DNA of 24,885 nucleotides from a virus. Every line of letters begins with the position of its first letter. The stretch's first letter is position 1. Where the stretch lies: IMG/VR virus record IMGVR_UViG_3300042317_000074, positions 1 to 24,885 of that record; one strand, written 5' to 3'. Made by a program: the position numbers and the translations under genes. Under the pieces are notes generated by a model that ran no database searches, was not told the DNA's origin, and worked only from the letters and a program-made list of their open reading frames with translations. Below are positions 1,593 through 23,121 of the stretch, piece by piece.

Positions 1593-4500
1593 CTACATCT
1601 TGTCGCGGTATATCTTCTCAGCTTTAGCCGCAAGGATGTTTATATTCCGTTTGCGCTGGTCAATACGCTCATTTCTAAGGGCTTCATTCATATCAGTATT
1701 AGCTTCAAGCATTTTTATCTCTTTGCCTAACTGCTGCATCTGTCTACCGATCTGGTCGTACACCGTAGCCATACCCAGTTTCTTTTTTGCATCTGGATCT
1801 GCTGCCAGTTTTTCTACCTCTTCCTGACGTCCCTGATCCTGTAACGTCTTCAAACGTGAACGGAAACTATCCAGATCTTCTTTATGTGTATAGAAGTCTG
1901 TCCGTTGCTGGCTCGCATACTTAGTACCAAATATGCCCTTCAAACCTAAACCCGGTAGTTCTACAAAATCCTTACTCGGTTTGATTGGCGCATTGTCAGG
2001 TTTAAGCATCATATCAGCCAACCATACAGCAGCCATACCTAGCTCACCACCATAACCACGGAACAAGTTATCCCATTTAGGCGCCGACATACCTGTTTTA
2101 GACAGCAGATTTGCTGCTGCAGTAGAACGATCAGATTCTAGTTGGTAATGCTCGCCTTTGGTCTCAATGTCTTCTCCTGTATAGGTAGACTTATTCATCC
2201 AGTTTTCAAACACAGGTTTAGCGATCTGAGGAATAGGCAGCAATGTGTAACCCATACCGCCCGGCACCATACCCTGCATCTGATCTACCGCGGCAGACAT
2301 AATTTGCTGCGCTGACTGTGTACCCATACCATACCGCACCATCATTTCAGGCATCCACTTAATAAAAGCGAACTCTGGTGGTAATGCAATAGCCATTGGG
2401 TGATCTTTTATGCCAGTTGGGAATATCCAGTTTGTGTAACGTTTACTGTCTGGAATACTTTCGTACTCCTCACTACCGCTCATGTACATAGTGTATGCCG
2501 CGGACAACATACCGATAGTAGCTACTTTACCTAAGAACTGACGTCTGAATTCTGCTCTGTCTTTCATTGGTATGTTAGATGCAGTAACCGCTTTTCGCAT
2601 TAACTCCAGACCGTTAATACCTGCAGACAAGAACGGAATCAACAGACGGGCCTGCTTCATCGCTTGAGAAGATCCAGTTACCGAGAAGTTGATGTTCTCT
2701 CTAGCCATCATAACCGCATAGTTTTCCGCGTCTTTACCGTGTAGACCTTCTTTAGCCGCTCTGAGCAATGCTTCTTTATAGATAGCCACACGAGTCGCGC
2801 CGTCCACCGCGATATGCATTTTGCTTAGGAAGTTTCCACTTTTATCTGCAACAGAAGCTACTACCCCTTTGGTTCCCGCTCTACGACTCATTGTGTCCAT
2901 AAAATGATGGACATCACTAGCATTTAAGGACGGATCGACATGACCAATAACACCACGACGTGCCAACATGTCATACGTAGGGTTATTGCCCTGCATAATG
3001 CTAGTAAGTTCTTTCATGGTGTGAGCAGGTGTTATCCAACCCAAATCAGTAGCTAAGGTAGCTGCAATTGGATCTCTCGCAATCTGACGTATCCAATAAC
3101 CCGGGTTACTTAATACACCGGTACGTAACACTTGTGTAGCGCCACGAGCCACTTTCATCAAAGGACCAAAATCCATCTGTACTTGCATCAATGACGGAAT
3201 AAGTTCTGGGCTATCGACCTTATAGAACTTCCGCTCACCGTTCACCATAACCGCTAGGTTACCCTGCAGCTCTTTCTTGACGGCACGTTCAACTTCACGT
3301 GCAGCACCTACAGCAACAAACTGCTCACCGATAGCTTTCTTAGTCTCATTCGCCATGATACCGAGTGTCATACCAGCATAGTGCCGTGCCATGTTTTCCC
3401 AGACGTTTACTTGATGCTCAGCTGCTGTACGTTCTCTAAACACTTTAGTCCGAGTGTTGCCCACCTCAGTAGGTTTACCTTCTTGTACACCTAAACGCTG
3501 TAGTACCTCTTCACGTAGCATGTAGCGAGGTGAGTAGCTGGCGTTTTTCATAAACACGTCACGGGTTTTCTTATTGATTAAACCTGAGTCAAATGCAGAT
3601 TTAATCAGAGACTTATTGATCTCACGCCACATCTCAAGCGCATCATTCAGCTCAGGGTACTTAGCCCGTAAGTCAGCTACGTCTTTCTCGTGCTGTCTGA
3701 ACTCAGTCATGTTGCCGGTGATATGTTTACCTACTTTACTTGGATCACGTTTCAATTGGTCAGCTGCATCCAATACGTAGGCTACATGGTTGAACAGGTC
3801 TCGACCCTCTTTACCGATTTTGTCTACTTGGCGCTGCATCTCATAGATAGACGCATTGACCACTTTGCCAGAACTTAACCGTACAGGGATCTTCGTGATG
3901 TCCATCGTGCCGTCTTTCAACAACTCGATACCACCCATCTGTAGTGCATTGGTGATGAAGTTCGGTGCAGTAGACATAAAGCGTCCGACAAGATCTGCAC
4001 GTTGCTTTTCACCGACCATCTTACCTAGATGCGGTGCCAGCGTAGTTTCTACACCGTGCCATTCATTGACGAACTTCTGGAAGAAACTATCCATCCAAGA
4101 GTTCATACCTTTCACACGCTCAGGAATAGTCTTAGGCGCTTCGATGTCTTTCATCGTTGTGTACCCTGAACCTACTGCACGTTTGATGAGCGGGTCGTTT
4201 GCATGATGAGCAGGCAACTCGAAAACTCTACCTTCAGCTTCACGTCTAGTATTGATAGCAGCCAGAGCTTCAGTATTTGATAGTAATTCGCCTAACGCTC
4301 TACCTGATTTAAACCCTAGAATTTTAGCAACCGCATGGGTTAATGCACCCCATGCTGATGTTTCTTTGTACCTAATCTTGGCTAATTTACCTTGGAACTC
4401 AGGATTACTTAACCCTTCGGACACAAACTCATGTATGTCCTGTGTACCATAGTCACCTTTTATAGACTTGTGATCTTTGACTTTCTCATACAGATTGGTC

Positions 4501-7500
4501 AGATTCTCTACATAAGGTTTTTGTTCCTTAGTCGGATTATCAATAGCATGACTCACCACTGCATGAGCAACCTCATGCCCTATTACCCGTGTAGCCACAT
4601 CTTTCGGTGTATTGCTTCCTATAATAATAGTATCAGCAGCTCTGTCGTATCTACCCCCTACACCATCATCGGAAACAAATTTGACTTTATTTCCTAGACT
4701 TTCGAGTTTTTCACCTAACCAGTTATATGTAGGGTTATCGTGAGCCTTGAGAGCGTCAATAACTGTCGCTCGTTTTATAGGTTTAGTTTGGGCTTTAGGT
4801 TGCGCTTTAGCAACAGTCTCTTGTGCATTATCGAGGTTAATTACCGCATCTACAGCATTACCCGCGGTTTCGGCTGTTGGGTTTTCGTTATTGTCCGCAA
4901 TAGCATTTTTCGCACGTTTATGTGCAGCAGTTACAATAGGATCAACGTCACCCGTAACACCCACGTCATCTGAGTCTGCCCAATTTTTAGTTTCTTGGTT
5001 TACCTCTACCGCGGTTCTTACATCTTCATCCAGTGGTTTGGTTAGGGTAGGTTTTTTACCTAACTCAGTTTCTCTTGCACGAATAGCGGCATACCGATCC
5101 CGTTTCTCCCCATACTGTGGGTCAAGCTCACCAATAAGATGTAATCTATCTCGCTCATTAGCCAGTTGCTCCTTACTCATAGATGCATATTCAGGGTATG
5201 AGATAGGCGCAACAGGTTCTTCCACCTTCGCTTCAGGCGCAGCGGTCTTTTCTACAGGTTTGTAGTTACTCGTAGCTGCTTTTGTTTTTGCGTCTAATAT
5301 TTTGAACCAATCGTAGTCCCCATAGGACTTAACAGCGTTGTTATATTCAGCTGTGTAAGGTTTAAGTTCCTCTTGAATAGTCCGTACTTTAACTTTATCT
5401 ACATTGGACAGATCAAAAAAATCTCTACCTTTAGTGATTTCGTCTATTTTTGCGTCAACATTGTGGTTAGCTGCATAAAAGTTTAGTACTACTTCTTTTG
5501 TGTTGCTGGCATTTACACCATCAATCCCTGCGGTTGTTACTTTGTTTTTATTTAAATACTCAGGCAAAGAAAAAATTTTGTCTAATACCTTTCTGATCCC
5601 CGACGCTGTATCTTGTATATCAGTATATGTAATTATAGGCTCTACTGGCTTACTCTTAGGCGCAACAGCTTCAGATTTAACAGGTACAGGCCGCTCTTCG
5701 ACTATAGGCGCAGCAGCTTCAGACTTAGCTTTTTGTGCCTCGCGTTTAGCTATCTGATCATCGGTTAGTATATGTGCAGCAGCTTGTTTATCAGTCACAA
5801 TATGTGATACACCTTCATCATACGTCTTAACTATTTGCCTTGTATCTTCGCTACTGGCAGCAACAACTTCGTTGTAATCCTGTTTTTGTTGCTCTAATTC
5901 AGCCTGTCTAGCAGCTTCTTTCTCCGCGATTTGCTCAGCAGCTACCCTTTGACGTTCTGCATCTCTTTCTGCATTAGCCTTAAGTTCGTGGTATGCCTTA
6001 ACATTCTGGGTGACTCTATCAATGTTTAGAGGTTTACCGGGCGTGTGTAACTTAGATATAGAGTCCCAAATAGTATTACCATTATTATCAGGCGGAGTGT
6101 TTTTAAGTTCCTCTATAGATACAGGTTCAACCTTAAGTTTACCTACAGCTTCCTGATAAGCTTTCTCGGGAGTATTGGTCTCAAAATACTTACGTACTGT
6201 TGTAGGCACAGTAAATGATTCTGGGTTTTTCCATTTACTATTTACTGTACCATTCCAGCTATCCTTCACAGTATCTGGAAGAGACGCAAAATCTTCACCG
6301 GGATAGTGCTGCTCAAATAACTGCGCTGATACATCAGCTATCTGTTTTCTTATATCCGCAGGTTTATTAGGACGCACTGTTGGCGGAGCTACATAGTCAG
6401 GTGTATGTGTAGGTGTAACTAACTCCTCTCCCAATTCAGGTGTAGCTAACTCCGCTCCCGCTTCAGACACTGGTACCTTTTCTGGTTTACCCGCTATACG
6501 TTCAAATGCTGTAAGCGTATTTTTCTTCGGTTCGTACACGCCCGGTTGATCTTTACTTTCGCGTGTTGCAGTGCCTTTGGCTTTTACTGCGTCGTTAAAC
6601 CCTTTTCGTTGTTTATCTGATAGATCAGAGTATGCAGGGACATCGTCTCTGCCGGATTGTGTGCGTAGGGTTTCCCAGAGCTGGTCGGTAGATTGCTCAG
6701 GGTGGAAAGGTGTGTTGTCTATGTCGTACTGATCTTTTACCTCTTTCGCTGCAGCAACGTCTTTTCTAGCATCAATAGCTTCAGGTGATACGCCCTCTGC
6801 TGTCGCTGCGCCTTCTGCTCGTAGCTTAGCTTCTCTGACAGGGTTGTGTAATACAGCATGGCCTGCACCAAAGATCGGGGATAATAAAGCTAACTGTTGC
6901 GATAGTTCACCAGCTTCTTCAGTGGTCATCGGTTTCTCGCCTGTTGCGTGGCGAGTCAAGGCTTCACTAGCTAGTGATAATGGGATATTAACTGCAGCAT
7001 TACCTGCTGCACCTGCCGCTACGTCACCTGCAAAACCACCCCAAGTACGTTGACCCGGAACTTCTGCAGCTGCTCTAGTTGCTGCTTCTTGTGCTGCTTG
7101 AAATGGCGCTGCTTTGGCTTCTTGTACAGCTAAATTCTCTACAGGACTTAGAGGACCTAAATCGCCCTTATTGGCTACGCCTGCTACTTCCGCAGCTTTT
7201 GCTTCTCGTGCTGCTAACGCAGCTTCTCTAACACCCGCTTCAGCGGCTTCAGGTGTTACACGCCCTAAACCTTTTGCGACAGCTTCTGACGCATAGGTAC
7301 CTAATCGACCGGTCGGAATTTTAGCAACGTTCAATGCAGCTAATGGCCCACCGTAAAGCATGGATTCTGTATCATCACCACCACGATGTTTAACTTCACC
7401 AACTGAGGCTAGGTATTCATTTACCCCTGCAGCGGCTAGACCTAAGGGTCCAAACATAGGAGCACTCATAACCATAGTTGGTCCAAAACGACCGCCCATC

Positions 7501-7895
7501 TCACCTAAAGGTTCCGCAATATGCTTTTTACCTTTAGCCAACAGCTCCGCTATAGGACCGTTCTCTGCTCTAGCTCTAGCAATGTCTTCCTCTGTAGTAC
7601 CTTCATACATACCAGCCGCTTCTTTACGTGCAGCTTCAGACGAATTTAACCAGTCTTGCGAGTAGTTTTTCATACCCGCAGCGCCTAATAGCGTGGCTAT
7701 ACCTTGTTCAGCTGATGCTTTATACTCCGTTAACCCATGCTTAAACGCTGCACCGATACCTGTCTTAGCTTCGTGTGCTTGTTGTTGGGTGTAGAGTAGG
7801 TGGGCCTGTTGTATTACCTCAGCTTCAGGTGCATTAGCTGGGCCTTCTACGGTTAATATTCTTCCGTCAGGACCTTGAACTTTGTATATAGCCAT
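1593..7895 (-). CDS. Giant 2100-residue virion protein with zincin motif and LPD38-like region
   Basis: Probably an internal virion protein ejected with the DNA, in the position where short-tailed phages carry large core proteins; this role is inference. Residues 1-32 form a short module (YKVQGPDG...VEGP...AEVIQQA) seen at the start of large phage proteins. Residues about 35-330 are Ala-rich, with a hydrophobic patch near 135-160. About 360-1050 is Lys/Glu/Ala/Pro-rich and looks disordered or coiled. HEVAH at residues 1107-1111 (bases 4563-4577) is an HExxH zinc-protease signature, with IHEFVSEG (Glu1156, Glu1160) offering a third ligand. From about 1735 (NFSVTGSS...LLIPFLSAGINGL) the sequence resembles large polyvalent protein associated domain 38. 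A coiled C-terminal tail ends in basic residues. The start is ATG with AGGA seven bases upstream, after the TAG of the preceding gene. Confidence 0.8.
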   Translation of the reverse strand: MAIYKVQGPDGRILTVEGPANAPEAEVIQQAHLLYTQQQAHEAKTGIGAAFKHGLTEYKASAEQGIATLLGAAGMKNYSQDWLNSSEAARKEAAGMYEGTTEEDIARARAENGPIAELLAKGKKHIAEPLGEMGGRFGPTMVMSAPMFGPLGLAAAGVNEYLASVGEVKHRGGDDTESMLYGGPLAALNVAKIPTGRLGTYASEAVAKGLGRVTPEAAEAGVREAALAAREAKAAEVAGVANKGDLGPLSPVENLAVQEAKAAPFQAAQEAATRAAAEVPGQRTWGGFAGDVAAGAAGNAAVNIPLSLASEALTRHATGEKPMTTEEAGELSQQLALLSPIFGAGHAVLHNPVREAKLRAEGAATAEGVSPEAIDARKDVAAAKEVKDQYDIDNTPFHPEQSTDQLWETLRTQSGRDDVPAYSDLSDKQRKGFNDAVKAKGTATRESKDQPGVYEPKKNTLTAFERIAGKPEKVPVSEAGAELATPELGEELVTPTHTPDYVAPPTVRPNKPADIRKQIADVSAQLFEQHYPGEDFASLPDTVKDSWNGTVNSKWKNPESFTVPTTVRKYFETNTPEKAYQEAVGKLKVEPVSIEELKNTPPDNNGNTIWDSISKLHTPGKPLNIDRVTQNVKAYHELKANAERDAERQRVAAEQIAEKEAARQAELEQQKQDYNEVVAASSEDTRQIVKTYDEGVSHIVTDKQAAAHILTDDQIAKREAQKAKSEAAAPIVEERPVPVKSEAVAPKSKPVEPIITYTDIQDTASGIRKVLDKIFSLPEYLNKNKVTTAGIDGVNASNTKEVVLNFYAANHNVDAKIDEITKGRDFFDLSNVDKVKVRTIQEELKPYTAEYNNAVKSYGDYDWFKILDAKTKAATSNYKPVEKTAAPEAKVEEPVAPISYPEYASMSKEQLANERDRLHLIGELDPQYGEKRDRYAAIRARETELGKKPTLTKPLDEDVRTAVEVNQETKNWADSDDVGVTGDVDPIVTAAHKRAKNAIADNNENPTAETAGNAVDAVINLDNAQETVAKAQPKAQTKPIKRATVIDALKAHDNPTYNWLGEKLESLGNKVKFVSDDGVGGRYDRAADTIIIGSNTPKDVATRVIGHEVAHAVVSHAIDNPTKEQKPYVENLTNLYEKVKDHKSIKGDYGTQDIHEFVSEGLSNPEFQGKLAKIRYKETSAWGALTHAVAKILGFKSGRALGELLSNTEALAAINTRREAEGRVFELPAHHANDPLIKRAVGSGYTTMKDIEAPKTIPERVKGMNSWMDSFFQKFVNEWHGVETTLAPHLGKMVGEKQRADLVGRFMSTAPNFITNALQMGGIELLKDGTMDITKIPVRLSSGKVVNASIYEMQRQVDKIGKEGRDLFNHVAYVLDAADQLKRDPSKVGKHITGNMTEFRQHEKDVADLRAKYPELNDALEMWREINKSLIKSAFDSGLINKKTRDVFMKNASYSPRYMLREEVLQRLGVQEGKPTEVGNTRTKVFRERTAAEHQVNVWENMARHYAGMTLGIMANETKKAIGEQFVAVGAAREVERAVKKELQGNLAVMVNGERKFYKVDSPELIPSLMQVQMDFGPLMKVARGATQVLRTGVLSNPGYWIRQIARDPIAATLATDLGWITPAHTMKELTSIMQGNNPTYDMLARRGVIGHVDPSLNASDVHHFMDTMSRRAGTKGVVASVADKSGNFLSKMHIAVDGATRVAIYKEALLRAAKEGLHGKDAENYAVMMARENINFSVTGSSQAMKQARLLIPFLSAGINGLELMRKAVTASNIPMKDRAEFRRQFLGKVATIGMLSAAYTMYMSGSEEYESIPDSKRYTNWIFPTGIKDHPMAIALPPEFAFIKWMPEMMVRYGMGTQSAQQIMSAAVDQMQGMVPGGMGYTLLPIPQIAKPVFENWMNKSTYTGEDIETKGEHYQLESDRSTAAANLLSKTGMSAPKWDNLFRGYGGELGMAAVWLADMMLKPDNAPIKPSKDFVELPGLGLKGIFGTKYASQQRTDFYTHKEDLDSFRSRLKTLQDQGRQEEVEKLAADPDAKKKLGMATVYDQIGRQMQQLGKEIKMLEANTDMNEALRNERIDQRKRNINILAAKAEKIYRDKM

Positions 7896-11758: not shown

Positions 11759-12174
11759 AAAAGGACCTCAACTAAGGTATTCCGTGATTCAAAATTGTAG
11801 CGTCGCCACAATCTAACTATGGATGGCCTTCCGAACGCTTGTAGTATCGTGGCTCCGTTTTGTTTCAATATAACTTTAAGTTGTTCTACTGTATCTCTAT
11901 TAGAGATTAACTTACCACCTATAGCAGTAACAAAGGCCACACGATGTAGAGGATGATTACTAAAAGATACAGTCCCTGCACCATGAATATTGTTGTTCTC
12001 ATCAACCGCCACCAAAAGCAACCAAGCACCGGAAGTTACATAACCCCTAACATGGTTAAGATTATACATCGGTTCCCCAAGATCACCTTCTTCTAATGCA
12101 GCTGCAATATAGTGCTCCACCAAAGGCCATGTCTGGTTTGTGAACTCTAACGGTACAGGTTGTACGTTAATCAT
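11755..12174 (-). CDS. GNAT-like acetyltransferase-fold phage protein
   Basis: 139 residues. The pattern is that of small GNAT-fold proteins often found among phage late genes. It has an N-terminal helix pair (LVEHYIAAALEEGDLG), a strand run (GAWLLLVAVDENNNIHGAGTVS), a central VAFVTAIGG, a helix around VEQLKVILKQNGATIL, then FGRPSIVRLWRRYNFE, where GNAT proteins carry the A-helix and the typical GF ending. I do not see a clean Q/RxxGxG/A acetyl-CoA loop, so catalytic activity is doubtful and a structural or chaperone role is possible. It overlaps both neighbours by four bases (ATGA) and lies between two putative ejection proteins. Fold assignment is moderate; substrate is unknown. Confidence 0.6.
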   Translation of the reverse strand: MINVQPVPLEFTNQTWPLVEHYIAAALEEGDLGEPMYNLNHVRGYVTSGAWLLLVAVDENNNIHGAGTVSFSNHPLHRVAFVTAIGGKLISNRDTVEQLKVILKQNGATILQAFGRPSIVRLWRRYNFESRNTLVEVLL

Positions 12175-13544
12175 GCTGGTAAGTGTTTGTATGCTTTTGA
12201 GTCATTAGCAAACTGCTTTTTGTTACCCATTGTTTTCTTACGACCCGCTTGAATCTTACGTACCATCTCATCTAGCCTTTGGGCACCGGCATCTGTCGAA
12301 CCATTACCTAATTCAGATACAATGCGGCTTGGCACCACGTATTCACCAGCTGCGAGTCGTGCAGGTTGCTTACCAGCAATAGAAGCTGGGATATCATCGG
12401 AAACACCGTCACCAGCACCGTTAAGCAAGTTAGGTCTACCACCGGTAGCGTAACCACCAAGATCAGCAATGCCACCACCCGCCATCATTTGCACAGACTC
12501 TTGACCGTAGCCTTCTGGGTCAGCTACTTCTGCTGGGTTAGGTATCTGTGTGATACCACCTGTTGCTATGTTTTGCGCTTGCGAAGCATAAGTGTCTAAA
12601 TCTGTGATACCACCCGCTGCATAGTAGGTTGGTTTGTATACGTTCCATTCAGGTACGCTAGGTGTGTAATTTGCAGGTGAGTAGTTGTATTTAGGTCCGT
12701 TATACGTGAACTGAGATTTTCGTTGTTCCTGTGTTGGTAGCGGTGTTGCCTCTGGTGCAGTCATGGAATCTAAGGCCATTGACGTTGGAACACTAATTAG
12801 CCCTGAAGTAATATTGGGGTTTTCTGCGGCAAATTTAGCTGCTGTACCCAGTGCACCTGTAGCTGTGCCTGCTTGAGACGCTAAAGCACTTTGACCTGCT
12901 CCACCAACTGCGCCACCTAAGAAGCCCATACCTGCCCCTTTACCGATGTCTTGACCAGTTAAGCCTGAACCTAATGCACCAATACCTGCACCATAAACAC
13001 CTTGTTGTAGTGCGGTACCTCCAATATTAGCAGCAGTTCCTGTTACGGGAACATTAAAAGCATTACCCACCAATGACTGTCCCCAACCGACTTCAGGTAA
13101 CTTAGCTAACGCTGCATTTGTTGTGTTAGTTATAGTTTGAGGCACTACATTCTGTATGGCTTGTGTTCCTACATTGGCTGCGGTTTGAGTTCCTACATTA
13201 GCAGCCGTTTGAGCAGCGGTTTGTGTTCCTACATTAGCAGCCGTTTGAGCAGCGGTTTGTGTTCCTACATTGGCTGCGACTTGAGTTCCAGCTTGCGTAG
13301 CAGGGGCAGCCGCGCCTGCAGCAGGCATTAAAGGAGCCATAAGCGGAGCTGTAATCGCGCCCATCAACGCACCTTCACCCGGATCTCCACCCATAGCAGC
13401 TGACATTCCTGCACCTAACCCAGCTCCACCAGCAGCCAAAGCCCCTGCGCCTGTTAGCGCTGCGGCCCCTGCACTTAATCCTGTTATCCCAGCAAGTCCC
13501 GCTACGGAAGTACCAACAGTAGCTAACGATGCAATAAAACTCAT
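12171..13544 (-). CDS. Gly/Ala-rich virion protein with YAxGG motifs and conserved phage C-terminal domain
   Basis: 457 residues. Residues 1-80 are almost entirely Gly, Ala, Leu and Ser with GxxxG spacing and could insert in or line membranes. Residues about 88-128 are short tandem repeats (TAANVGTQTAAQ), matching a 36-base DNA repeat. Residues 308-369 hold four YAxGG-like motifs (YAAGGITDL, IATGGITQI, MAGGGIADL, YATGGRP). Residues 379-434 (DGVSDDIPASIAGKQP, GEYVVPSRIVSELGNG, AGAQRLDEM) match a small C-terminal domain I know from many phage tail-region and internal proteins, usually DxIPA, GEyVvP and alGnG. The tail is basic. The start is ATG with GGGAGA upstream, overlapping the cupin-like gene by four bases. 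The role is unproven; the gene opens the presumed ejection module. Confidence 0.72.
   Translation of the reverse strand: MSFIASLATVGTSVAGLAGITGLSAGAAALTGAGALAAGGAGLGAGMSAAMGGDPGEGALMGAITAPLMAPLMPAAGAAAPATQAGTQVAANVGTQTAAQTAANVGTQTAAQTAANVGTQTAANVGTQAIQNVVPQTITNTTNAALAKLPEVGWGQSLVGNAFNVPVTGTAANIGGTALQQGVYGAGIGALGSGLTGQDIGKGAGMGFLGGAVGGAGQSALASQAGTATGALGTAAKFAAENPNITSGLISVPTSMALDSMTAPEATPLPTQEQRKSQFTYNGPKYNYSPANYTPSVPEWNVYKPTYYAAGGITDLDTYASQAQNIATGGITQIPNPAEVADPEGYGQESVQMMAGGGIADLGGYATGGRPNLLNGAGDGVSDDIPASIAGKQPARLAAGEYVVPSRIVSELGNGSTDAGAQRLDEMVRKIQAGRKKTMGNKKQFANDSKAYKHLPA
13165..13284. repeat. 36-base tandem repeat inside the 457-residue gene
   Basis: Two exact adjacent 36-base copies (13189-13224 and 13225-13260), each starting GTTCCTACATTAGCAGCCGT as written on the plus strand. 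They are flanked by partial copies that start at 13165 and 13261 and differ at a few bases. The repeat keeps frame and encodes the 12-residue unit TAANVGTQTAAQ on the minus strand. It has the form of replication slippage within a coding region. Confidence 0.9.
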
Positions 13545-18517: not shown

Positions 18518-18850
18518 TTAAGCCCAAGGTAACGCAGGTGTTACGATAGGTGGATTTACTTGGTTTTCAATTTGTTGCAGTACGTTCGCTTCTGTAGCGG
18601 CAACGGTTTCAGCGCCCAATGACGCTTGTACCCATTCTATTACTTGTGCTTCGGTTAAGTCAGCATACGGGATGTAATCAGGTTTGTCAGCATCCACTTC
18701 AAAAGAAGTAGTGTTATACACTCTACCTCTATACTGACCGTTAGTTGCTGTACAGTCCCAATGGGCTGTAACAACATAGTCTACTAAGCCATCAACATCA
18801 GATTTACAGTTTAAAGCTGAAATGCTCCAGATTGGTGTTGCTATTGTCAT
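18518..18850 (-). CDS. Small phage tail-region protein of unknown function
   Basis: 110 residues. The first part is beta-rich (IWSISALNCKSDVDGLVDYVVTAHWDCTA, then GQYRGRVYNTTSFEV), followed by a helix with YADLTEAQVIEWVQASLG. This layout (strand pairs with hydrophobic VHW-like core, then LTExxVixWvxxxLG) is one I associate with small proteins encoded right after tail fibres in many phages. The start overlaps the fibre stop as ATGA, with AAGGA eight bases upstream. A structural or assembly role is inferred from context only. Confidence 0.62.
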   Translation of the reverse strand: MTIATPIWSISALNCKSDVDGLVDYVVTAHWDCTATNGQYRGRVYNTTSFEVDADKPDYIPYADLTEAQVIEWVQASLGAETVAATEANVLQQIENQVNPPIVTPALPWA

Positions 18851-20358
18851 TTTATTTTTCCTTCTAAAGTTTCTAGTCTTGCGGTTAGTTCTTTAATAGC
18901 TGCTACAAGTAATGGGATGGTATCGGTATATTGAACACCTAATGTTCCCATTTCATCAGTCTGTACATTTACCGCTTCTGGTAAAACTGCTTGTATATCT
19001 TGTGCAATTAAGAATGAACGACTTACACCTTCTTCATCTGTTTTAAAACGCCCAGTAACAGCTCTTAAAGTTGATACTTTTTGTGCTGCATTTTCAATCG
19101 GTTTTAAATCAGTTTTTAAACGTTCATCTGAATTTGAAGACCATGCACCAGTACCGCTTGCTAGATAAACACCATCATATGCTGAATTAATAATAAAGAA
19201 ATTAGCACCATTACCATTAGTGGTAGATGGACCTACCATCCAACTAGTTGTTGTTCCTCTAGTTAATGCTAAAGCGGTATCCACAGTAGGTACTGTTGTA
19301 GTTCCAACTAATAGATGTCCATTAGCATCCAGCGTCATAGCCTGCGTAAACGATATCTCGTTACCTGCGGTTCCGAAGGGGGCGGTATACCATTTGTGAC
19401 CAGCATCTTGGTTATACATAAATGCACCAACACCTGTGTATTTATATGTCCATGCTAATGATGAGTTTAAATACGCGTTGTTTGTTTGCCAAACTTGTTG
19501 TGAACCTGTTCCGTTTGAATATGAACCAAAACCACCAGTAGTATTGATGTCTAAATTTTTAACAGGGCTTCCCCAAGCGCTCGGAGTAACCCCCAAGCCT
19601 AGGTTGCCGGAGGAGTCGAGGCGCATCTTAGAAGACCCGCCAGCAATAAAACTTAAATCAGTAGAAGCCGAAGCTGCTACTGGGACACCTTCGATACCTG
19701 CATAATTATAATTGTCAAATAATCGTAGTTTTGAACCATTAGAAGTTGACGGACTATATGCAGCAATTGCCACACCTGTTCCACCATTTGTCTGCACTTC
19801 CAGTTTTCCATAAGTTCCGGGCGAACTCGTGCCGATACCCACATTACCATTAGCATCTTTATACAACTGACCAGAACCAATGTTTATTACACCAGTACCA
19901 CCCGTTAAAGTGCCTGTGTATGCTAGATTACCTGCAGTGTAATTAGTAGCATAGTTAACTCCTTCAACCACATTAGTCCCATCACAATATAGATACGCCG
20001 TAGCACCGTTAGGCACGGAAATACCGGTACCTGCTGAAGTCTTTAATGTAATAGCAAACCCACCTGTTGTACCGTTCTTAACGATATACGTCTTAGCTGC
20101 AGTAGGACAGATCACATTGATTGCCGCAGTTAGTGTGCCTGTTATGTTTAATACAGCATTACGAGCCTCGTCAGAAGCACCATTGGTTACAGTCAGCGTA
20201 TAGTTAGATGAACCTGACACGGTAATAGCACCTACGCCTGTAATCGCTTGTTCGATTAAGGAGGCAATATTCGTGTTGGTATAACCACCCCAAGTACCTT
20301 GGTTGGTCCCGTCTTGCTGGATAATCAGCCGTAAATTTGATGAATAAGTATTAGCCAT
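18847..20358 (-). CDS. Tail fibre with C-terminal S74 intramolecular chaperone
   Basis: 503 residues. A receptor-binding fibre whose C-terminal chaperone folds the trimer and then cuts itself off. The N-terminus (YSSNLRLIIQQDGTNQGTWG, then IASLIEQAITG) is a common phage fibre attachment module, followed by a beta-rich stretch to about 165. The shaft contains the GNVGIGTSSPG and LDSSGNLGLG type segments frequent in S74 fibres. SDERLK at residues 410-415 is the peptidase S74 autocleavage motif (Ser410, Lys415). The remaining 94 residues end in a coiled coil (LVAAIKELTARLETLEGKIK), as usual for this domain. The mature fibre would then end at Asn409. It starts directly after the stop of the 307-residue repeat protein. 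Confidence 0.9.
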   Translation of the reverse strand: MANTYSSNLRLIIQQDGTNQGTWGGYTNTNIASLIEQAITGVGAITVSGSSNYTLTVTNGASDEARNAVLNITGTLTAAINVICPTAAKTYIVKNGTTGGFAITLKTSAGTGISVPNGATAYLYCDGTNVVEGVNYATNYTAGNLAYTGTLTGGTGVINIGSGQLYKDANGNVGIGTSSPGTYGKLEVQTNGGTGVAIAAYSPSTSNGSKLRLFDNYNYAGIEGVPVAASASTDLSFIAGGSSKMRLDSSGNLGLGVTPSAWGSPVKNLDINTTGGFGSYSNGTGSQQVWQTNNAYLNSSLAWTYKYTGVGAFMYNQDAGHKWYTAPFGTAGNEISFTQAMTLDANGHLLVGTTTVPTVDTALALTRGTTTSWMVGPSTTNGNGANFFIINSAYDGVYLASGTGAWSSNSDERLKTDLKPIENAAQKVSTLRAVTGRFKTDEEGVSRSFLIAQDIQAVLPEAVNVQTDEMGTLGVQYTDTIPLLVAAIKELTARLETLEGKIK

Positions 20359-21282
20359 CTATGATGTCCCGAAAGTGTTGATTGGTTTCCAGTTAGGATT
20401 CTGAGTATCGTTAATAGTTGACCAACCGGGTGTTTGACCATCAGCTACATTGGTCCAGTTAGGGTTTTGAGTATTGTTTATAGCTGCCCAAACAGGGTTT
20501 TGAGAGTTTGACACATCGCCCCAATTGACATTCTGTATATCATTTATTAGCTCCCAAAGCAACCTTCCAGCATAGCTGTCTGAGGCTAATACTGCTTCAA
20601 GTAGAGCGACATTATATATACTGCCGGCGGCGCTTATATCGTCATTCGCGAAACCGTACTCAACTAAACTCACATTACCTATTACAGTGCTACCGTAATC
20701 ATCGGTTGTTAAGATACTTTCGTAGAGCTGAACTACCAAGTCGATTGTAGCTATTAGCGTGTCTATAGCAGAAGCTGTTTCTGAAACACCTGTATTGTAT
20801 GCGCCATTAACAGTTTCAACATCTAACGCGGTTCCGCTTTCAGTGATAGCTGTGGATAAAACAAATCCGCCAGTTTGCATATCGGTTGCTGTAGCGTTTT
20901 CCGTTACAGTCAGGTTTAAACTTAACGAGGTAGACTCACTATCATCTGCCGTTACACTTTCTGTAAGCGTTGTTGTTGCTGTTACCGTTTGCGTTTGGGT
21001 ATCTGCGGCTGACGCTGTTTCTGCAATACTAGCACCTAGAAATAACGTGTTTGTCTGAATAGCTGTTACAGTTCCACTTTCGGTAAGCGCTGCAACTAAA
21101 TTATATTGAGCTGATTGTGCATCAGTAGTTGTTACGCTTTCAGTAAGCGCACTGTTTATAGTTTCTGTGACCGTTTGGGAGCCAGAAGATGTGACTGATT
21201 CTGCGAGAGTATCATCATATACCGACATCCCCCACCCAGCTTGACCCCATGTACCCGATCCCCAACCGCCCGTTGCAGACAT
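20359..21282 (-). CDS. Repeat-rich tail/fibre protein (20- and 11-residue repeats)
   Basis: 307 residues, very rich in Thr, Ser, Ala and Glu, with almost no Lys or Arg. A Trp/Gly head (GWGSGTWGQAGWG, residues 6-18) leads into nine exact 20-residue units from residue 28 (ESVTTTDAQSAQYNLVAALT is one) and two looser ones. Five exact 11-residue units follow from residue 246 (INDTQNPNWKP). Nothing looks catalytic. The regular strand-like repeats suggest an elongated beta structure, such as a fibre shaft or adhesin-like spacer; this is inference. It lies immediately before the S74 fibre and after small virion proteins, so a tail-surface location is likely. The start is ATG one base after the preceding stop. 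Confidence 0.72.
   Translation of the reverse strand: MSATGGWGSGTWGQAGWGMSVYDDTLAESVTSSGSQTVTETINSALTESVTTTDAQSAQYNLVAALTESGTVTAIQTNTLFLGASIAETASAADTQTQTVTATTTLTESVTADDSESTSLSLNLTVTENATATDMQTGGFVLSTAITESGTALDVETVNGAYNTGVSETASAIDTLIATIDLVVQLYESILTTDDYGSTVIGNVSLVEYGFANDDISAAGSIYNVALLEAVLASDSYAGRLLWELINDIQNVNWGDVSNSQNPVWAAINNTQNPNWTNVADGQTPGWSTINDTQNPNWKPINTFGTS
20383..20547 (-). repeat. Five 11-residue protein repeats with Gln-x-Pro-x-Trp core (coding)
   Basis: Residues 246-300 of the same protein: INDIQNVNWGD, VSNSQNPVWAA, INNTQNPNWTN, VADGQTPGWST, INDTQNPNWKP. Each is exactly 11 residues, and the first residue alternates Ile/Val, which hints at a 22-residue two-unit period. Confidence 0.92.
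20662..21201 (-). repeat. Nine 20-residue protein repeats (coding)
   Basis: Residues 28-207 of the 307-residue protein divide into nine consecutive units of exactly 20 residues, each opening with Glu: ESVTSSGSQ, ESVTTTDAQ, ESGTVTAIQ, ETASAADTQ, ESVTADDSE, ENATATDMQ, ESGTALDVE, ETASAIDTL, ESILTTDDY. The pattern is ES(V/G)TxxDxQ followed by an alternating hydrophobic strand. A tenth unit of 21 residues and a partial eleventh follow. DNA copies are diverged. Confidence 0.9.
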
Positions 21283-21464: not shown

Positions 21465-22040
21465 TTATACGCTCGCAGTGTAAGTTACGTTCAAAACGTC
21501 ACCCGATGCTACAGTACGCGCACCGCCGGTGAATGAGCCAGCTGAGTATAAAACACCAGCACCACCATTAGAGGCTGTATTTTTAGTTTGTGTGGTACAC
21601 AGCAACGCACCCAACACTGTCCCAGCACTATTAATGCTGAAAGCGGATGTTGTTGATACTTTAGAACCGGAAGACGCCGCGTTCCAGCCGACAGTAGTAC
21701 GGTTAGCTCCGGAATAATTTAAGAACTCTAACCATCCGCCGTGTGAAGCTAAAGTGTCACCTGCGGCATAGGCAGAAAATGAAGCATTATCAACTAAGCC
21801 CATGTACCAAGCGGCAGTATAAGTAGTGCCGGCAAAGTATTTGTCTAACAAGTCGTTTTTACCTACAGTTACAACCAAGTTCTTAATGGTGTCTGACCAT
21901 TTCAAGTTACCTTCAGCATCATAGCACTCAACACTATATTGACCTGTGGCATTGATAGACTCGTCAATTACGCCTGTTCTTGCAATACTAACTGCGTTTG
22001 CATCTTGTGCATTGGCAGCTTCGCCTAAACCTTTGTTCAT
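21465..22040 (-). CDS. Conserved virion protein of unknown function
   Basis: 191 residues. The segment YSVECYDAEGNLKWSDTIKN, then LVVTVGKNDLLDKYFAG and YMGLVDNASFSAYAAGDTLASH, matches a family found beside tail genes in many phages and annotated only as structural or hypothetical. The rest is beta-rich and Ser/Thr/Gly-rich, ending in GDVLNVTYTASV. The start has AGGAG six bases upstream, and that AGGAG overlaps the TAG of the preceding gene. The position between the adaptor and fibre genes suggests a minor tail or head-decoration protein. Confidence 0.68.
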   Translation of the reverse strand: MNKGLGEAANAQDANAVSIARTGVIDESINATGQYSVECYDAEGNLKWSDTIKNLVVTVGKNDLLDKYFAGTTYTAAWYMGLVDNASFSAYAAGDTLASHGGWLEFLNYSGANRTTVGWNAASSGSKVSTTSAFSINSAGTVLGALLCTTQTKNTASNGGAGVLYSAGSFTGGARTVASGDVLNVTYTASV

Positions 22041-22467: not shown

Positions 22468-23121
22468 TTATCTCACCGGCAGTCTAACTTGACCATTTCG
22501 ATACGCGTCGCCACGATCTTTTCCGTCACCTAAAACTTTAAGCAATGCTAAGGCTTCTTGGTATCTATTTTGGTACGCAGCTATCAAATCAGGTTCGCCT
22601 TTTAAGAAGTGGTACGCTTCCACAATAGCTCCCCAAAGCAGAGCAGAATCAAAGTTATCGCCCAACCATGTCTGACCAGCAGTGACAATAGATTCTGGAT
22701 AAAAGAAGTAATGAAGCTCAACATCGTAGTTTTGGTCAGGTGTAGGCCCTAAAATAAACGACAACTCTTTCTGGTCACTTGATTGTGGACCAAAGATCGC
22801 ATAGTACTTAGGTAACCCTGTAGAAGCTGGCTTAGCATAGGCCTCACGAATGAAGTTGACGTCTTTGTTTAACAGGTAACTGTAATTACCGTCAGCATCA
22901 ATAACCGCTAATGAATACGAAGCTAAAAAATCGTTAGGGCATGACAAATACGCTACATCCGCAGAGGTGATACCCGTTACGTTTTTACGTAAATCTGGAA
23001 GCTGTACCGTGTTGTATATGCGTTGTTCCGCTTGCTGAGTAAAATTCGCAAGTTGGTCTGCAGAAAAACTATTCTCAACGTAGTCTTGAATGTTTGCGCA
23101 AAGCTGAGTGTAGGTCATCAT
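22468..23121 (-). CDS. Head-tail adaptor-like protein 2
   Basis: 217 residues. Begins with a helical TYTQLCANIQDYVENSF and QLANFTQQAEQRIYNTVQLPDLRKN, then CPNDFLASYSLAV, FIREAYAKPASTGLPKYYAIFG, LGPTPDQNYDVELHYFFYP, and a final helix pair (LLWGAIVEAYHFLKGEPDLIAAYQNRYQEAL). This helix, strand insert, helix layout is typical of phage adaptor/head-completion proteins (the gp4 or gp6-like and SU10-type adaptors) that bind below the portal. AGGA lies upstream of the first of two ATGs (23121, 23118). A second adaptor-like gene lies about 1 kb upstream, and the two could stack or serve different rings. Confidence 0.7.
   Translation of the reverse strand: MMTYTQLCANIQDYVENSFSADQLANFTQQAEQRIYNTVQLPDLRKNVTGITSADVAYLSCPNDFLASYSLAVIDADGNYSYLLNKDVNFIREAYAKPASTGLPKYYAIFGPQSSDQKELSFILGPTPDQNYDVELHYFFYPESIVTAGQTWLGDNFDSALLWGAIVEAYHFLKGEPDLIAAYQNRYQEALALLKVLGDGKDRGDAYRNGQVRLPVR

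Follow-up and report, generated by a model that had tools for sequence, protein, structure and literature searches.

Gene organization of the locus

The 24,885-nucleotide stretch of viral DNA analyzed here (the window) carries a collinear, podovirus-like module of SU10-type adaptors, a nozzle homologue, an S74 fibre and an endolysin. The gene considered in this study, which we call the rod gene in anticipation of the role proposed below for its product, sits within this tail module, among the adaptors, nozzle and fibre (Table 1). A sequence-only reading of the window had placed the gene next to the fibre, and the fibre gene does adjoin it, both in the window and in most relatives. For the product of the upstream gene, a PDB chain labelled "Structural protein" is a weak match (E = 3e-5).

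Table 1. Features of the window, with the subdivisions of the rod protein given as residues in parentheses
Feature	Coordinates	Strand	Details
2,100-aa ORF	1593..7895	-	Without a match in PHROGs at E <= 0.001; contains HEVAHAVV, which by eye resembles a zinc-peptidase motif; may be an internal virion protein that is ejected
457-aa protein	12171..13544	-	Short tandem repeat (NVGTQTAAQTAANVGTQTAAQ); no PHROGs match
Nozzle-like protein gene, 701 aa	14854..16959	-	PDB nozzle chains 8zkm and 8zkk, E ~1e-5; internal motif GWGAGAWGSGTWG resembling the rod head
Tail fibre gene, adjoining the rod gene downstream	18847..20358	-	N-terminal GTWG anchor; C-terminal S74 chaperone, Pfam Peptidase_S74 E = 3.5e-10; PHROG tail fibre families
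Rod protein gene	20359..21282	-	307 aa plus stop; 31.9 kDa, pI ~4.05, charge ~-32
Trp tail (243-307)	20362..20556	-	Six Trp at 11-residue spacing, i.e., five 11-mers of type QxPxWxxINDT
Unit eleven, truncated (229-242)	20557..20598	-	Merges into the Trp tail
Unit ten, 21 residues (208-228)	20599..20661	-	Uncounted in the sequence-only reading
Nine exact 20-residue units (28-207)	20662..21201	-	
Trp/Gly head (1-27)	21202..21282	-	GGWGSGTWGQAGWGMSVYD; family conservation
Short ORF, ~59 aa	21285..21464	-	MAASFKVGQEVQLITV...; between the 191-aa and rod genes
191-aa gene (phrog_8123), upstream	21465..22040	-	Constant upstream neighbor of the rod gene in relatives
SU10-type adaptor gene	22468..23121	-	Pfam SU10_adaptor E = 1.2e-22

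Two exact repeats in the putative rod protein

The protein had been described as a run of exact 20-residue repeats followed by exact 11-residue repeats, and both residue positions and autocorrelation confirmed this description. Glu recurs at residues 28, 48, 68 and so on to 208, giving nine exact 20-residue intervals, and Trp stands at residues 243, 254, 265, 276, 287 and 298, giving five exact 11-residue intervals, with Gln at 250, 261, 272, 283 and 294. The autocorrelation reached z = 8.7 at lag 20 and 8.7 and 9.3 at lags 11 and 22, whereas the highest value that 5,000 shuffles gave at any lag was 4.75/5.21. The 20-residue units open with Glu and have Asp at position 7 in most copies, as had been claimed. 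The count of nine such units was correct for the exact copies but incomplete, since it missed the 21-residue tenth unit and the truncated eleventh. Similarly, all five 11-mers are exact in length, but the Gln-x-Pro-x-Trp motif ascribed to them fails in one copy, QNVNW, which has no Pro.

The divergence between units is also real, with mean identities of 44% in DNA and 28% in protein, and we detected no DNA tandem repeat in the rod gene. Because the DNA of the units is nonrepetitive, the period is kept at the protein level.

A family of putative rod proteins in uncultured viruses

Scans of IMG/VR (80 loci kept from the first scan; up to 502 stretches per query in wider scans) placed relatives of the rod protein in hundreds of uncultured viral contigs, many of them from uncultured aquatic phages. 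Neither the head nor the Trp-tail pattern found a relative in two scans covering 84,980 species genomes of bacteria and archaea, and the scans thus gave no prophage or host link. A BLAST search of 50,697 phage records yielded the metagenome-assembled phage DSL-LC04 as the only clear Trp-tail relative (PMC10611076).

Family libraries were similarly silent. The window rod protein had no Pfam match at E <= 1, its best PHROGs match (E = 0.036) was nonsignificant, its best NCBIfam score was 12.6 against a cutoff of 650, and its similarity to PHROG tail fibre families did not rise above noise; its relatives likewise lacked a significant match in Pfam, PHROGs or NCBIfam. Among PDB sequences, the window rod protein found no match, and the family profile reached a best E value of 0.3. 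Two similarities, between the Trp tail and Paenibacillus tape measure proteins (31%, E = 2e-3) and between a rod relative and Natrialba phage PhiCh1 (E = 0.6), were judged to be due to chance or convergence. The literature searched contained nothing pertinent to phage repeats of 20 residues or to steps in repeat number. The libraries searched (Pfam, PHROGs, NCBIfam and PDB) contain no description of the rod family; the broader class to which we assign it, the repeat-built phage tail appendage, is already known.

For unit statistics, we used 206 distinct proteins sharing the Trp/Gly head and body, from which 2,190 units were parsed. The window protein has the features that define this family, namely, a GGWxSGTWGQAGWG head, 20-mers that tile the body and have acids at positions 1 and 7, and a C-terminal Trp every 11 residues, so that the arrangement first seen in one protein, two repeat types in series behind a Trp/Gly head, is the architecture of the whole family. 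Head positions G5, G6, S9, G10, W12, G13, Q14, A15, G16, W17, G18 and S20 are invariant or nearly so.

Unit length is conserved across the 206 proteins, so that the refutation foreseen in the sequence-only reading, a varying unit length among homologues, does not apply: spacing was 20 residues in 2,027 cases (93%), 21 in 149 (7%) and 19, 22 or 23 in 14. An earlier parse, which allowed any spacing of at least 18, had given 412 spacings of 20 and 46 of 21, together with spacings of 40 to 42 and 60 to 62 where units had been missed. In the Trp tails of relatives, the Trp spacing after the units was always 11, except for one spacing of 6 in L064 and one in L067. An acidic residue occupied position 1 in 98% of the 2,190 units, position 7 in 95% and both in 94%, and a hydrophobic residue occupied position 19 in 92%, position 15 in 90% and position 9 in 67%, percentages that are biased slightly toward the motif because the parser started from the profile of the family itself. 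Positions 2, 4, 6, 10, 14 and 20 were mostly Ser or Thr, and the consensus reads E-T/S-A-T-G/A-S/T-D-x-V/I-S-A-x-x-T-F-x-x-x-V/I-S. Overall, the family has 12.8 acidic and 1.8 basic residues per 100.

A recurring slot beside the fibre gene

The order seen in the window, an upstream gene of 171 to 195 residues (phrog_8123 type), the rod gene and the fibre gene, recurs in nearly all complete relatives, and both neighbors were detected for 172 of the 206 rod proteins. Most complete loci have the anchor LxLxxxGExxGTWGxxxNxx in the downstream fibre. In nine loci (L068, L070, L071, L072, L077, L079, L085, L086 and L100), a gene of ~262 residues starting MQVYKIANLVNDRVYIGLTT, by eye a GIY-YIG homing endonuclease-like gene, lies between rod and fibre. 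The sequence GWGxGxWGxGxWG, akin to the rod head, is present in 15/15 nozzle homologues of relatives whose loci reach that region; the nozzles of rod-less phages also carry this motif, so it is not rod specific.

Close relatives of the window differ at the fibre. L002 and L003 are identical or nearly so to the window across the rod and otherwise ~96 to 100% identical to it, but their fibre differs in its middle or C-terminal part (19392-19598 and 18847-19966), a recent exchange of the tip. Because the rod is kept in these two contigs while the fibre differs, the fibre, not the rod, looks like the fast-changing specificity element there. In L004, otherwise nearly identical to the window, the C-terminal half of the rod and the N-terminal half of the fibre have been swapped as one block (19398-20813).

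One Trp tail behind exchangeable bodies

Scanning with the Trp tail only, we found it on several bodies. These included E/D 20-mers preceded either by the Trp/Gly head or by an FxxxPFAxxPFAA-like head, TGVQASGAVG repeats, Pro-rich FRPVDAPNP repeats and Gly-rich sequence, and proteins of 1,000 to 1,400 residues with NWS...SGGGSGAAIPTS domains also end in a Trp tail. Its presence on several different bodies makes the Trp tail the more constant module, and the description of the protein as modular is supported in this sense. Eight proteins of ~880 to 1,400 residues (L089, L090, L097, L111, L153, L156, L159 and L160), several of them cut by the locus end, join domains of the NWS/SGGGSGAAIPTS type to E/D 20-mers and a Trp tail.

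Protein length changes in whole units, usually four at once

The number of units per protein peaked at 6 (18 proteins), 10 (73) and 14 (38), followed by 11, 12 and 15; counts of 7 and 8 were absent and 9 occurred once, and the same peaks appeared in both family parses. Among the 11 clusters at 75% identity that varied in unit number, the difference was four units in 8, one in 2 and five in 1, and among the 14 variable clusters at 70% identity it was four in 8, five in 3, one in 2 and three in 1. The notion that unit-number differences are always four was thus weakened by wider sampling, to 8/11 and 8/14. With a chance of one in four per cluster, the binomial probability is 0.001 for at least 8 of 11 and 0.01 for 8 of 14, values that serve as indications only, since the step tests were picked post hoc and the clusters were taken as independent. 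At the DNA level, three of four length-variant pairs (L005/L065, L009/L062 and L114/L110) differ by a single 240-base gap, and the fourth (L056/L030) has three gaps that total 240.

The Trp tail also varies in steps. The 206 proteins have 2, 3, 4 or 6 Trp residues per tail and never 5, and 8 of the 10 clusters at 70% identity that vary in Trp number include 4 versus 6, a difference of two 11-mers. Because 11 is odd, two repeats would be needed to bring Trp back to the same side of a beta-strand.

A DNA super-repeat behind the four-unit steps was considered and rejected, because units four apart have a mean identity of 0.40, which is not above the 0.40 of neighbors, and because junction homology is 0 to 2 bases. 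Pairs of units that are almost the same are overrepresented to some extent at lags 1, 4 and 5, so mutation may contribute to the four-unit steps. The sequence-only reading had argued that length is under structural selection, and this idea gains support, in that change by whole units, usually four at once, fits selection on structure. A tentative suggestion, to which we attach low confidence, is that the shaft has a higher-order period, such that the length steps of four 20-residue units (80 residues, ~8 strands) and of two 11-mers might keep a superhelical turn or strand parity between head and tail; rods would then come in discrete lengths, and their acid ladder may bind calcium. The step rule is the surprising part of these results.

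Predicted structure and comparison with known systems

AlphaFold2 monomer models were made for the window protein with 38 relatives and for the relative L009 as the query. Both were all beta, with regular strands at two per 20 residues (period, ~10), and of low confidence (mean pLDDT of 46 for the window protein and 54 for L009). The models thus point to regular beta strands and not to the disorder that would have spoken against a rod, but at these pLDDT values they are too weak for proof or for assignment of a fold. A Foldseek search of the rod models against BFVD and PDB returned nothing at E <= 0.001. On the basis of the models, the rod units would adopt a beta fold.

Short beta repeats also build the triple beta-spiral shafts of the adenovirus fibre and reovirus sigma1, which have repeats of ~15 residues with a conserved Gly/Pro turn. 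As in those shafts, the rod's repeats stand in series and their number would set its length; unlike them, the rod has a 20-residue unit with acids at positions 1 and 7 and no conserved Gly/Pro turn. S74-chaperoned tail fibres, encoded by the adjoining gene, share the presumed appendage role, but the rod lacks the Peptidase_S74 domain present in its neighbor. Curli repeats (CsgA, Pfam Curlin_rpt), which occur in some related pelagiphages (PMC9599517), resemble the modelled rod units in having ~20 residues and two strands each; the rod differs in having no Curlin_rpt match in Pfam and no Ser/Gln/Gly/Asn/Gln ladder.

Two phage proteins are also comparable. WJZ48131 of DSL-LC04 (Dishui Lake), annotated as a hypothetical protein, is encoded after an adaptor and a phrog_644-like gene and before the fibre, and it has a Trp/Gly head, a repeat body and a Trp tail at 11-residue spacing, but its body repeats are VTGVQGTGQVGTVTV, with no E/D 20-mers. 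In the isolate Pelagibacter phage HTVC027P, gp68 (QGZ17849) occupies the same slot and has Trp/Gly heads, a repeat body and a C-terminal Trp-Ile-Pro-Trp remnant; it differs in having three Trp/Gly modules, other repeats and a degenerate Trp tail, and BLAST in the phage collection did not match it to the window protein.

Proposed role of the rod protein

We think it probable that the rod protein is an undescribed modular acidic beta-repeat accessory appendage (rod) of the phage tail; the sequence-only idea of a modular rod beside the fibre is thus plausible and has partial support. Arguing for this reading are the tail-module context and recurring slot, the conservation of unit length despite divergence, the whole-unit length variants, the strands in both models, the acid pattern, the exchangeable bodies and the HTVC027P protein in the same slot. 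In such a rod, each 20-residue unit would probably form two short strands, with hydrophobic or small residues at every other position, and along the shaft the acids of positions 1 and 7 would form a ladder. The constant end of the shaft would be the Trp/Gly head. The Trp tail, with its 11-residue repeats, would serve for capping or docking and can be placed on other bodies. The number of units would set the length of the shaft, with changes by whole units, preferentially four at a time. We infer that the protein is present in the virion; it may also be oligomeric, dock on the particle by one of its ends and bind cations through its acid ladder.

An obligate linker, with the head docked on the nozzle or adaptor and the Trp tail holding the anchor of the S74 fibre so that the rod extends the reach of the fibre, would account for the fact that in most loci a fibre with a GxWG anchor follows the rod within ~5 to 20 bases, for the single-block swap in L004 and for the resemblance of the nozzle motif to the rod head. 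However, a similar nozzle and fibre anchor occur without a rod in Synechococcus phage MinM2 and Roseobacter phage CRP-901, which implies that the fibre can attach without one, and the Trp tail is also found in loci with other fibre types. Furthermore, when divergence was compared with that of the fibre anchor, with the upstream gene controlled, the partial correlation was 0.108 for the Trp tail and 0.105 for the last units of the rod, the tail thus tracking the anchor no more closely than those units. We therefore regard an obligate linker as unlikely.

The evidence against any folded rod is that Ser/Thr/Ala-rich low complexity can mimic beta repeats and that the models have mean pLDDT values below 60. 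Together with the charge of ~-32, these same properties would suit an acidic spacer or a surface coat (of the head, for instance) that is rich in Ser/Thr and either disordered or glycosylated; the strict unit length, the hydrophobic alternation (position 15 in 90% and position 19 in 92%) and the whole-unit steps would be unexpected in such a protein, which makes it a very improbable reading. No better are the prospects of an assembly chaperone or of a lysis-released protein outside the particle. The rod is encoded by a separate gene, beside a fibre with an S74 chaperone of its own, as such a protein might be, but its sequence gives no hint of an enzyme, a chaperone or secretion, and a varying number of repeats suits a structural length element.

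The rod protein is common in the tail modules of uncultured aquatic phages, and current family libraries leave it unnamed. Should it prove to be a rod, appendage length could be read from the number of its repeats. The step rule of four units and two 11-mers is a structural prediction open to a single cryo-EM or crystal structure. Exchangeable bodies joined to one type of Trp tail would illustrate the way in which phages replace their appendages.
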